Below, piece by piece: positions 49,727 to 58,828 of a stretch of DNA of 64,000 bases; the stretch's first letter is position 1, and each line of letters opens with the position of its first letter. A program made the position numbers and the translations under genes. This stretch comes from Spirochaetaceae bacterium (GTDB lineage Bacteria > Spirochaetota > Spirochaetia > DSM-27196 > SKKC01). Below the pieces are notes generated by a model, which saw nothing but the letters and a program-made list of their open reading frames with translations, ran no database searches and was not told the DNA's origin. Where the stretch lies: positions 1 through 64,000 of the forward strand of contig RECN01000074.1 of NCBI GenBank assembly GCA_007694005.1, written 5' to 3'.

Positions 49727-50176
49727 ATGAAAATACTGACCAAGGCGTACGGAGAGTACGAAATAGACGAGCGACAGCTCATCGATGTTCCCGTCGGTCT
49801 CTTCGGCTTCGAGAATCTGCACAGATACGCGTTGATTGATGCTCATCAGAAGCCGTTTTTCTGGCTGCAGAGTCTCGAGAAGACTGAGGTCGCATTCGTG
49901 CTCATCAATCCGCTTCTGTTTCGACCGGACTATACGGTCGATGCTACCGAAGATGATCTGGCAGCGCTTGAGATCGATGATCCGGACGACATGCTGTGCT
50001 TCGCGATCGTGACCATACCGGATGACGGCCGGGGTATGACGGCAAACCTGCAGGGGCCACTTCTGGTCAACAGAAAGACGCACCGTGCCAGGCAGATCAT
50101 CTCGGTAAACCCCCAGTGGCAGATACGACACAGCATCACCGATGAGCTTGAGCGCCAGAGGTCAAACGCATGCTGA
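49727..50176 (+). CDS. fliW: Flagellar assembly factor FliW
   Basis: A 149-residue cytosolic regulator. The opening ([36 protein letters not shown]) and the [19 protein letters not shown] segment are typical of FliW. In Bacillus, FliW binds either unassembled flagellin or CsrA, and so relieves CsrA repression when flagellin is secreted. It overlaps csrA by seven bases, the same pairing as in Bacillus and other spirochaetes. The targets here would be the two flaB mRNAs. Confidence 0.95.
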
Positions 50177-50397
50177 TTCTCGCAAGAAAGCTCAACGAAC
50201 GAATAATCATCGGTGACGAGATCGAAGTATCGGTCGTGGAAATCAAAGGTGATCAGGTAAAACTGGGAATCTCCGCACCGCGTGAGGTCAAGGTCTACCG
50301 ACACGAGGTGTACCAGGCGATACAGGACGAAAACAGAGCGGCGTCGGCGAGCACGAATCTTCCGGCGCTCGAAGGGTATTTCGAGCCGGAAGCCTAG
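50170..50397 (+). CDS. csrA: Carbon storage/translation regulator CsrA
   Basis: A 75-residue RNA-binding dimer that blocks ribosome access at GGA motifs. The first strand [10 protein letters not shown] and the RNA-contacting Arg44 in [11 protein letters not shown] are present. The C-terminus is about 12-15 residues longer than in E. coli, as in FliW-dependent CsrA proteins, where the tail helps FliW binding. It is the last gene of the operon and overlaps the convergent tsaB stop by four bases, with no terminator between. Confidence 0.97.
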
Positions 50398-56566: not shown

Positions 56567-57421
56567 TTATCCGAGCAGCTGCAATACTGACTGAGGCTGT
56601 AGGTTAGCCTGTGCAAGCATTGCGGTGTTGCTCTGCATAAGGATCTGATTCCGAACGAACGAAACCATTTCCGCTGCCATATCGGTGTCGCGGATCTGAG
56701 ACTCTGCCGAAGCAAGGTTCTCAGCGGCAATGGCTACTCCAGACTGAGCCATTTCAAAACGGTTCTGATATGCACCAAGGTCTGCACGTTGCCGAGAGAC
56801 CGATCGAAGCGCTTCATCGACCATACCGATCGCCCGGTTTGCCGCCTCCGGTGTGGAGATCGAAACCGTGTCATCGCCACCTTGAGCATCTACCAGACCC
56901 AGTGCGGATGCCGTCATTGTTCCAATGAACACGCGGGCCGACTGATCCATATTTGCGCCGATCTGAAACTGCATGACACTTTCGGCTTCTTCGTTTCCAG
57001 CGAAGCGTCCTGTGAGCATGTTCAGACCATTGAACTGCGCATGCGAAGCTATGCGGTTTATTTCGCTCACCAGCTGTGAGACCTCGACCTGAATAAGCAT
57101 TCGGTCCTCAGCGGTATAGATACCGTTGGCTGACTGTACAGACAGCTCGCGGATGCGCTGAAGAATGTCCTGCGTATTCTGCAAGAATCCCTCTGTAGTC
57201 TGAATGAACGAAACGGCATTCTGAATATTACGCTCGGCCTGGTTCAGTCCTCTGACCTGGCTGCGCAGTTTTTCAGAAACCGCAAGTCCCGACGCGTCGT
57301 CTGCTGCACGGTTAACCCGCATCCCCGATGAAAGTCGCTCTACATTGGTCTGCATCGCTTCTCCACGGGAACCAAGAGTCCGATTCGCGTACGCTGCGGC
57401 GGTATTATGATTTATGATCAT
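56567..57421 (-). CDS. flaB: Flagellin FlaB (second copy)
   Basis: A 284-residue core flagellin of periplasmic filaments. It has the D0/D1 N-terminus [17 protein letters not shown] with [20 protein letters not shown] and the C-terminus [20 protein letters not shown] with [19 protein letters not shown]. The variable D2/D3 domain is almost absent, as usual for spirochaetal FlaB. The ATG at 57421 follows AAGGAGGG. It is clearly a paralogue of the upstream flaB (57687) and may share its transcript. No separate sigma-28 promoter is visible in the 265 bases before it. Its leader carries a GGA-loop hairpin (see 57426-57466). Confidence 0.97.
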
Positions 57422-57425
57422 ACAT

Positions 57426-57466
57426 CCCTCCTTGAACAAGATCGTCCGAGGCAATCCGTGCCTCGG
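57426..57466 (-). promoter_or_regulatory. Candidate CsrA-binding leader of the second flaB
   Basis: In the mRNA sense, CCGAGGC and GCCTCGG (7 bp, 57446-57466) close a 7-base loop ACGGATT containing GGA. About 28 bases downstream the ribosome binding site AAGGAGGGATGT (57433 to 57422) also contains GGA and resembles the CsrA consensus ACARGGAUGT. A second GGA lies in the 35-base loop of a perfect 10-bp stem GATGAAAACC/GGTTTTCATC (57529-57583). Two GGA sites at this spacing would let one CsrA dimer bridge them and block initiation. Confidence 0.5.
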
Positions 57467-57643
57467 TCCCATCGAATGCGATACCGGAGTCTAGAACGCG
57501 CTGTCTCCGCTTCGTCTTCTCGCAATCAGATGAAAACCAGCTGGCCGTAGAAGAGATATCATCCGGCTCATAAGGTTTTCATCTCCGACAGGCGACCTCA
57601 AGCGAGGTGATGTCTGATGTTTTTCAAAGAACAGGACGAGTAG

Positions 57644-57661
57644 AGGGGCCCGAAGGCCCCT
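57644..57661 (-). promoter_or_regulatory. Very stable hairpin after the first flaB
   Basis: In the mRNA sense, AGGGGCC and GGCCCCT (7 bp) close a TTCG tetraloop, 26 bases after the first flaB stop. No T run follows, so it is not a standard terminator. It may act as an mRNA stabiliser or processing boundary between the two flagellin messages, or as an inefficient terminator. Confidence 0.5.
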
Positions 57662-57686: not shown

Positions 57687-58547
57687 TTAACCGAGGAGCT
57701 GCAATACTGACTGTGGTGTCAGGTTTGCCTGTGCGAGCATTGCGGTGCTCGCCTGCATGAGAATCTGGTCGCGCACGAAATCTACCATCTGCGCAGCCAT
57801 ATCGGTGTCGCGGATGCGACTTTCGGCGGCTGCGAGGTTTTCCGCTCCGACATCGAGTCCCTGCATTGCGTACTCAAGACGGTTCTGGTACGCACCGAGG
57901 TTGGCTCGCTGCTGGCTGACACTCATCAATGCCTCGTCCACCATTCCGATCGTGCGGTTCGCACTATCGGCTGAGGAAAGAGTCACGATATCACCGGTAC
58001 CGACTTCTCGCATGCCCAGCGAAGCCGCGGTCATTGTCCCAATAAAGACCCGAATTCTCTGATCCATGTTGGCACCGATGTGGAAGTGCATGCTTGCGGT
58101 GACGTCGTTGTCTCCGGTTTCCCGTGCGAAACGTCCGGTGAGCATGTTCAGTCCGTTGAACTGTGCGTGAGAGGCGATGCGGTCGAGTTCGGACACCAGC
58201 TGTGATACTTCGACCTGTATCTGCATACGGTCTTCTGAGGTATATATGCCGTTCGACGCCTGTACGGCGAGCTCGCGGATACGCTGCAGAATGTCCTGAC
58301 TGGTCTGAAGATAGCCTTCTGTCGTCTGAATGAACGAAACGCCGTCCTGAGCATTGGTAGATGCGCGCTGAAGACCGCGAACCTGGCTGCGCAGCTTTTC
58401 GCTGACAGCGAGTCCCGAAGCGTCGTCACCTGCGCGGTTGATGCGCATTCCCGAACTCAGGCGTTCCACGCTGCTCTGTATCCCGCTTTCGTTGACACCG
58501 AGCTGTCGCTGTGCGAACGCAGCGCTCGTATTGTGATTAATAATCAT
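57687..58547 (-). CDS. flaB: Flagellin FlaB (first copy)
   Basis: A 286-residue core flagellin. N- and C-terminal helices are conserved ([68 protein letters not shown]). The middle is short, typical of spirochaetal FlaB. The ATG at 58547 follows GGAGGA at seven bases; a TTG-initiated extension to 58631 is in frame but runs through the leader hairpins and is rejected. A sigma-28 promoter and a long structured leader lie upstream. The paralogue at 56567 follows. Confidence 0.97.
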
Positions 58548-58553
58548 GTGTAT

Positions 58554-58672
58554 TCCTCCGTGAAAATCATGCTGAAAAGCGTCCCTGCTTTTCAGTATCC
58601 CCTGTACAAGTAGGATCTTGATCCCGCACAAGCGGGATAATGGTCATTCTTTGCTACGACACCTCCTTGTCG
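58554..58672 (-). promoter_or_regulatory. Candidate CsrA-binding leader of the first flaB
   Basis: In the mRNA sense three GGA sites follow each other. First, CGACA-AGGAGG-TGTCG (58657-58672) shows GGA in a 6-base loop. Second, CTGAAAAGC-AGGGAC-GCTTTTCAG (58572-58595) shows GGA in the loop of a perfect 9-bp stem. Third, the ribosome binding site GGAGGA (58554-58559) lies about 25 bases further. A plain hairpin, ATCCCGC/GCGGGAT (58621-58638), lies between the first two. The layout resembles the Bacillus hag leader repressed by CsrA. Binding is inferred. Confidence 0.55.
58567..58647 (-). CDS. Possible 26-codon leader peptide upstream of the first flaB
   Basis: ATG at 58647 opens a 26-residue frame (begins [10 protein letters not shown]) that ends in TGA at 58567, 20 bases before the flaB start. 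A perfect AAGGAGGTG ribosome binding site lies upstream, but its spacing of 14 bases is long. Translation would pass through the GGA-loop hairpin. This may be chance; there is no codon-use or homology support. Confidence 0.25.
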
Positions 58673-58800: not shown

Positions 58801-58828
58801 GTATCGGCTTTCTATACTGTATTCTTTA
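58801..58828 (-). promoter_or_regulatory. Sigma-28 (FliA/SigD-type) promoter of flaB
   Basis: In the minus-strand sense, TAAA (58825-58828), 16 bases, then GCCGATAC (58801-58808) closely matches TAAA-N15-GCCGATAA. An AT-rich stretch at about 58842-58865 could serve as an UP element. Transcription would start near 58795, giving a leader of about 245 bases. Confidence 0.8.

Follow-up and report, generated by a model that had tools for sequence, protein, structure and literature searches.

The intergenic region between the two tandem flaB genes of the window (the whole stretch of DNA analysed, 64,000 nt) is filled by an RNA of ~210 nt (57633-57417, minus strand). Comparison of related leaders showed this RNA to be conserved and covarying across Spirochaetia. 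Its elements, in order, are a boxA-like element, an anti-Shine-Dalgarno (anti-SD) arm (P1), P2/P3, P4 with its GCGC loop, the GGA hairpin P5, the SD arm (P1') and the AUG. We consider it fairly probable that this structured leader acts in cis to lower translation of the second flagellin of a two-gene operon, by way of P1, CsrA/FliW and boxA-Nus. The conserved regulatory RNA is broader and more elaborate than has been recorded, with CsrA its likely partner and Nus factors a possible one. The original prediction had placed the leader at 57422-57585, an extent that contains the hairpin and the SD and leaves out the 5' boxA (57633-57621) and the anti-SD arm (57618-57597).

Both flaB genes are encoded on the minus strand, and their leader features accordingly read from 57585 to 57422. 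The second flaB, the regulated gene (284 aa, 56567-57421; Flagellin_N and Flagellin_C; ATG at 57421-57419), stands in tandem with the first (286 aa, 57687-58547), which lies 265 nt upstream; the third flaB of the source genome is on a separate contig. On the plus strand, 7 kb from the tandem and also inside the window, lie fliW (49727-50176; PF02623, E 2.6e-39) and csrA (50170-50397; PF02599, E 1.2e-25), whose start overlaps the end of fliW. The best solved relative of the window CsrA is 5dmb_D, which we take to be a FliW-CsrA complex.

A sigma-28-like promoter of the first flaB, TAAAG..GCCGATAC, occupies 58801-58828 of the minus strand and agrees with the consensus at 11/12 positions. Promoters of this kind (at least 10/12 positions) were found in 59/76 first-class flaB leaders vs 2/81 second-flaB leaders. 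Since second flaB genes lack such promoters, transcription of the second gene probably runs on from the first, whose sigma-28-like promoter probably serves both. Between the first flaB stop and boxA lies a terminator-like hairpin with no U-tract, GGGGCC-TTCG-GGCCCC (57645-57660, minus), and the stretch of up to 60 nt preceding boxA in the window has an MFE of -24.3. This hairpin may serve in attenuation, in 3' stabilisation or in processing.

P5, CCGAGGCA-CGGAT-TGCCTCGG, lies at 57446-57466 of the minus strand with its loop GGA, a candidate CsrA site, at 57457-57455. The stem CCGAGGC/GCCTCGG that had been predicted to close a GGA loop is present here, with eight Watson-Crick pairs. When the 164-nt region was dinucleotide-shuffled 5000 times, 0.12% of the shuffled sequences had a GGA loop closed by at least eight Watson-Crick pairs. 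The SD, AAGGAGGGATGT (AAGGAGGGAUGU in RNA letters; 57422-57433, minus), stands immediately 5' of the ATG and is a candidate second CsrA site. An SD with GGA does follow the hairpin, as predicted, at a distance of 26 nt from loop GGA to SD GGA and not 28.

From the species genomes of 80 second-flaB relatives we obtained 157 flagellin leaders; L085, whose leader is too short, was dropped from the hairpin counts. Stems of 5 bp or longer that close a GGA loop, no more than 120 nt from the start, were present in 60/80 second and 69/76 first or third flaB leaders, vs 7-22 and 4-17, respectively, in 20 shuffles. When all 64 loop triplets were ranked, GGA came first in both classes (60 and 69; runners-up 32 and 44). 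RNAalifold, applied to a raw MAFFT alignment of 50 leaders, recovered the GGA hairpin alone, because the middle of the leaders is too variable.

We therefore describe the larger RNA with a covariance model, R1, which has 46 pairs and was built from a 12-row alignment with its structure taken from the fold of one leader (L080). R1 was run on 79/82 sources (L015, L032 and L085 were left out) and recovers 78 second-flaB leaders, 12 of them training rows; its match in the window is 57632-57419 (29.9 bits, E 5.3e-6). The resulting alignment, A3, has 97 rows; since these are fitted to the model, its counts lean towards the L080-derived structure. In A3, pairing is seen in 87.3% of cells vs 60.6% when shuffled and 40.5-51.6% with the partner slid. 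Changes on both sides of a pair numbered 1065 vs 352 shuffled, with compensatory change in every helix. The permutation tests reported below do not use A3.

P5 (helix 9) is paired in 93.4% of cells of the 97 rows, and 7/8 of its pairs show change on both sides. Its stem sequence varies across relatives and its loop stays fixed. Stem and loop are thus conserved across Spirochaetia in the leaders compared, and this conservation, together with the covariation of the stem, supports the earlier proposal that the hairpin is functional; the lack of conservation that would have spoken against that proposal is not what the leaders show. The loop GGA is kept in 62/78 second-flaB leaders and in all 17 first-flaB leaders of the R1 alignment; in the other 16/78 second leaders it is lost and the P5 hairpin or its position is retained. 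These GGA-less second leaders belong to Alkalispirochaeta-like and several gut Treponema lineages, and the loop GGA was apparently lost several separate times. The replacement is confined to second-flaB leaders, those of L016, L021, L026 and L054 and of the gut Treponema loci L035, L036, L044, L047, L050, L052, L056, L059, L069, L077, L081 and L084.

The 10-bp stem with a loop GGA that had been noted upstream corresponds to P3 (57528-57584, minus), seen in the fold and the alignment. The stem is real, at 11 bp (57584-57574/57538-57528); the GGA (57564-57562), in a 35-nt loop, is not conserved. L007, the closest separate relative, has the stem but not this GGA, and on this ground we rejected the GGA as a third CsrA site. 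Between P3 and P5 lies P4 (57485-57509, minus; CGGAG/CUCCG; helices 7-8), with a conserved GCGCG in its loop (57501-57497); the GCGC columns are nearly invariant in 50 aligned leaders. The GCGCG(A) of the P4 loop, in the window and in relatives, is self-complementary and might mediate dimerisation or bind a protein.

The SD is enclosed by P1. The 5' (anti-SD) arm, AUCAgACAUCaCCUCgCUUGAG (57597-57618, minus), is delineated by the MFE fold, permuted duplexes and covariation, and pairs with the SD and start-codon region (3' arm, 57417-57436, minus) in the MFE fold and nearly identically in the centroid fold. In the whole-leader fold of the window, the SD and start codon are shut within a discontinuous helix of 19 pairs (z -4.0; 0/200 shuffles as stable). 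The mean unpaired probability of the SD is 0.019 in the second and 0.43 in the first leader of the window. By class it is 0.157 (77 second leaders) vs 0.444 (72 first leaders), leaders with no recognisable SD or containing N being excluded.

Second-flaB leaders carry ACCCTCC, complementary to the SD, after the boxA-like element, and the upstream arm changes in step with the SD flank (for example in L016, L026, L077 and L035). Native arm duplexes gave -16.4 vs -13.9 for permuted ones (sd 0.29, 0/2000) in 77 leaders, a set without L064 (no box), and -16.7 vs -14.1 (sd 0.45, 0/10000) in 34 dissimilar leaders, a set without L061 (wrong box register). A control segment further downstream paired slightly above permuted (p 0.02), so a weak background of relatedness remains in the test. 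When the upstream 160 nt were swapped between species, the SD became hardly more accessible (unpaired 0.198 vs 0.157), which probably reflects conservation of the anti-SD core itself. In the 97 aligned rows, the P1 helices are 95-97% paired, with compensatory changes.

Among 296 Spirochaetota genomes, R1 at E <= 0.01 matched 30, of which 29 are in the window's class; the scan filters are strict, so this number is a lower bound. All 30 matches end at a flagellin start codon; a further flagellin begins some 1.0-1.4 kb upstream of 28/30, and the box is present in 27/30. In a genome of 1.14 Mb (G056, locus L120), the R1 RNA and box precede the second flagellin. A weak match (23.3 bits) lies at a flagellin start in a genome from another class of the phylum (G089, locus L127); this locus has the GGA hairpin but neither the box nor another flagellin upstream, and is possibly a simpler form.

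The first flaB leader of the window has its own GGA hexaloop hairpin, CUGAAAAGC-AGGGAC-GCUUUUCAG (58572-58595, minus), identified from the sequence and the class statistics. The two paralogues do share the layout that had been noted for their leaders, a GGA hairpin followed by GGA in the SD, and do so across the order. Distances from loop GGA to SD GGA cluster mostly at 22-28 nt in both classes, and R1, built from second-flaB leaders only, matches 17 first-flaB leaders. The hairpins had been described as differently built. One steady detail agrees with this: loops of the form GC-N-GGA-N-GC have six bases in 45/45 first-flaB leaders and seven in 30/37 second-flaB leaders, and relative to the ANGGAN hexaloop the second leader (ACGGAUU) is one base longer, whereas the first (AGGGAC) fits. 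Otherwise hairpin and spacing are the same.

These observations bear on how the two leaders arose. The original prediction took their sequences to be unrelated and their architecture to be convergent, and by eye the window's two leaders do have no obvious sequence similarity. In most loci, however, both paralogues have the same hairpin at the same spacing, the hairpin occurs throughout the order in both classes, and the second-flaB model picks up first-flaB leaders. Common descent accounts for this more economically than convergence, which we reject as the simplest reading; independent gain of similar GGA hairpins is very unlikely.

Two further hairpins were seen in flaB leaders. The first flaB leader of the window contains a second GGA hairpin, CGACA-AGGAGG-UGUCG (58657-58672, minus), with an SD-like sequence in its loop. 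Just 5' of the start of the third flaB (L005; genome G000, contig C183, start 1758, minus), a CCGGACATGGATGTTCGG hairpin precedes an AAGGAGG SD; it is near the CsrA consensus RUACARGGAUGU as quoted in PMC8668096.

With a GGA hairpin loop upstream and GGA in the SD, the window has the layout of a CsrA-repressed flagellin leader, although its SD is paired in P1. CsrA control is the likeliest function of the hairpin and SD, which we treat as predicted sites. The range of GGA-GGA distances that can be bridged, as given in the text of PMC7652899, includes 22-28 nt. According to the same text, extra loop bases can lower the affinity of the CsrA homologue RsmE; by analogy, the seven-base second-flaB loop may bind CsrA less tightly. 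Both CsrA and FliW are encoded in 29/30 R1-positive genomes. The exception, G215, has neither of the two and no flgK either, which points to an assembly gap. The correlated presence with FliW proposed earlier as a check is thus observed but uninformative, since CsrA and FliW are each found in 267/296 genomes and their co-occurrence with the RNA does not discriminate. Genomes with GGA-less loop types (G293, G091 and G260) still encode CsrA and FliW.

The RNA might instead act mainly by its own fold, with no role for CsrA, P1 setting a low constitutive rate or responding to temperature, salt or the ribosomes of the first flaB. In favour of this reading, few helices are paired as faithfully as P1 (95-97%), hardly any of the window SD is unpaired (0.019) and 16/78 leaders do without the loop GGA. 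A purely structural hairpin would not need GGA, however, and the retention of GGA in 62/78 second leaders despite a freely changing stem, together with the narrow GGA-GGA spacing in both paralogues, makes an RNA acting by fold alone somewhat unlikely.

The 5' boundary of the conserved RNA is the boxA-like element UGUUCUUUGAAAA (57621-57633, minus), which resembles the boxA of rRNA operons. TCTTTGA is present in 72/78 second-flaB leaders vs 3/72 first-flaB leaders (leaders of at least 250 nt), and in second-flaB leaders the element takes the form G[T/A]TCTTTGA[A/C]AAA, ~190 nt before the start. A UCUUUNA core is found both in the window (GTTCTTTGAAAA) and before the source genome's own 16S (GATCTTTTACAG). 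Nine other genomes were searched and 16S was found in six; by eye, TCTTTGG, TCTTTGA or TATTTGA forms precede 16S in 5/6, and four of the six have one or more operons with TCTTTGA in the 16S-23S spacer. In G291, no boxA-type element was seen by eye in either the 16S leader or the 16S-23S spacer. A search of open-licence PMC papers found no description of a boxA in a flagellin mRNA.

Part of the element, TTTGAAAA/TTTGACAA, could be read as a promoter -35 rather than as boxA: TTGAMA looks like a sigma-70 -35 hexamer, and second-flaB genes lack a separate sigma-28 promoter. Transcription from this promoter would, however, leave out of the RNA the bases just 3' of the element that P1 needs. The conserved core also reaches further 5' (GWTCTTTGA) and is found again in rRNA leaders, and in T. 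denticola flaB1 and flaB3 are reported in one operon (PMC9481697). A -35 function is highly improbable.

As a boxA, the element might follow the example of E. coli suhB: a Nus complex on the nascent RNA would repress second-flaB translation and so promote Rho-dependent termination instead of protecting the gene. The text of PMC5725501 describes a boxA near the suhB SD that represses translation through Nus factors, and P1 brings the sequence just 3' of boxA onto the SD. The suhB boxA, however, is 6 nt from its SD, and the element here lies ~190 nt upstream and comes near only through the fold, so that action of the suhB kind is unlikely.

The mechanism we favour combines P1, CsrA/FliW and boxA. 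Transcripts started at the first flaB promoter would extend into the second flaB, whose SD would normally be closed by P1. A CsrA dimer would bind P5 and, once P1 opens, also the SD at a distance of 26 nt, keeping ribosomes off. Since an SD within P1 is unavailable to CsrA, closure by P1 and occupation of the SD by CsrA have to take turns. FliW, bound or released by free flagellin, would set the amount of active CsrA, so that the second flagellin would be made sparingly and rise as the flagellin pool falls. A Nus complex recruited by boxA would keep RNA polymerase going through the poorly translated stretch, or tune its termination. A more specific reading of the rRNA-type boxA in a flagellin operon is advanced tentatively, as a real possibility that falls short of probable: Nus loading may couple polymerase processivity to the SD-hiding fold and to flagellin sensing by FliW-CsrA, one RNA setting the subunit ratio of the periplasmic filament.

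Published data on T. denticola can be set beside this proposal. Four primers of PMC9481697 (flaB1 and flaB3) match locus L123 without mismatch, which places the T. denticola R1 RNA between flaB1 and flaB3. As described in that paper's text, the two genes form one operon with a sigma-70-like promoter, and the ratios to FlaA are 0.71 for FlaB1, 0.61 for FlaB2 and 0.18 for FlaB3, the minor flagellin. In a flaB1 mutant FlaB3 reaches 0.94, a fivefold rise (PMC9481697). A minor second flagellin that rises without the first is what SD closure and FliW-CsrA feedback would predict; other explanations are possible, and FlaB3 might also rise through compensation during assembly or through polarity of the mutation. 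Where the text of PMC9481697 names CsrA sites, it places them at flaB1 and flaB2, not at flaB3.

The best Rfam match of the window is Termite-flg (RF01729), at 57542-57441 over the full length of the model (1-106), with 22.2 bits and E 0.077. The gathering cut-off is 40 bits, so that by the Rfam rule the window RNA is a relative of Termite-flg and not a member; a Treponema leader (L049, Treponema sp. Ct408_bin151) exceeds the cut-off at 47.3 bits. Of the 296 genomes, the RF01729 model matched 5 at E <= 0.1, 2 of them above the cut-off, where R1 matched 30. The other Rfam matches (mir-456, snoR9, CRISPR-DR16, SNORD38 and snoU61) are far below their cut-offs and were dismissed. In PMC2864571, Termite-flg is listed as 'Termite hind gut only' and as a probable cis-regulator, not a switch; in the main text of that paper neither CsrA nor 'flagell' occurs. 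The window RNA has the same helix order as Termite-flg, ending in a GGA hairpin before a flagellin, but also has a boxA and an SD:anti-SD helix, neither of which is in the Rfam model. We conclude from these alignments that Termite-flg is a partial view of the same RNA, to which the wider family adds boxA and P1.

If the proposed mechanism is correct, the orphan Termite-flg motif gains a function and flagellin joins the mRNAs controlled through boxA. An RNA motif orphaned since 2010 would be connected to FliW-CsrA feedback, and the FlaB3 data from T. denticola, as reported, point the same way. Spirochaete filaments are formed by several flagellins in a defined ratio, and the RNA offers one point at which that ratio could be controlled. 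A boxA in flagellin mRNA would also be an unexpected role for an rRNA antitermination element.

The UCUUU core is common to the present element, rRNA boxA and E. coli suhB, and suhB is a further parallel in that its boxA is able to control an mRNA (PMC5725501). Here, in contrast, the element belongs to a flagellin operon, lies ~190 nt 5' of the start codon and has an anti-SD after it. B. subtilis hag, Borrelia flaB and Leptospira flaB3/flaB4 resemble the present leader in encoding a flagellin, in a GGA overlapping the SD and in the adjacency of fliW and csrA, as described in the texts of PMC7652899, PMC8668096 and PMC3757020. The present leader differs from these in that its SD lies in a long-range helix, within a large conserved RNA with boxA, and in that its CsrA site is predicted. 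The E. coli glgC leader belongs to a different gene, and we know of no boxA in it. Its arrangement is nonetheless similar, with a CsrA hairpin just 5' of the SD that is bridged to the SD (PMC7652899).
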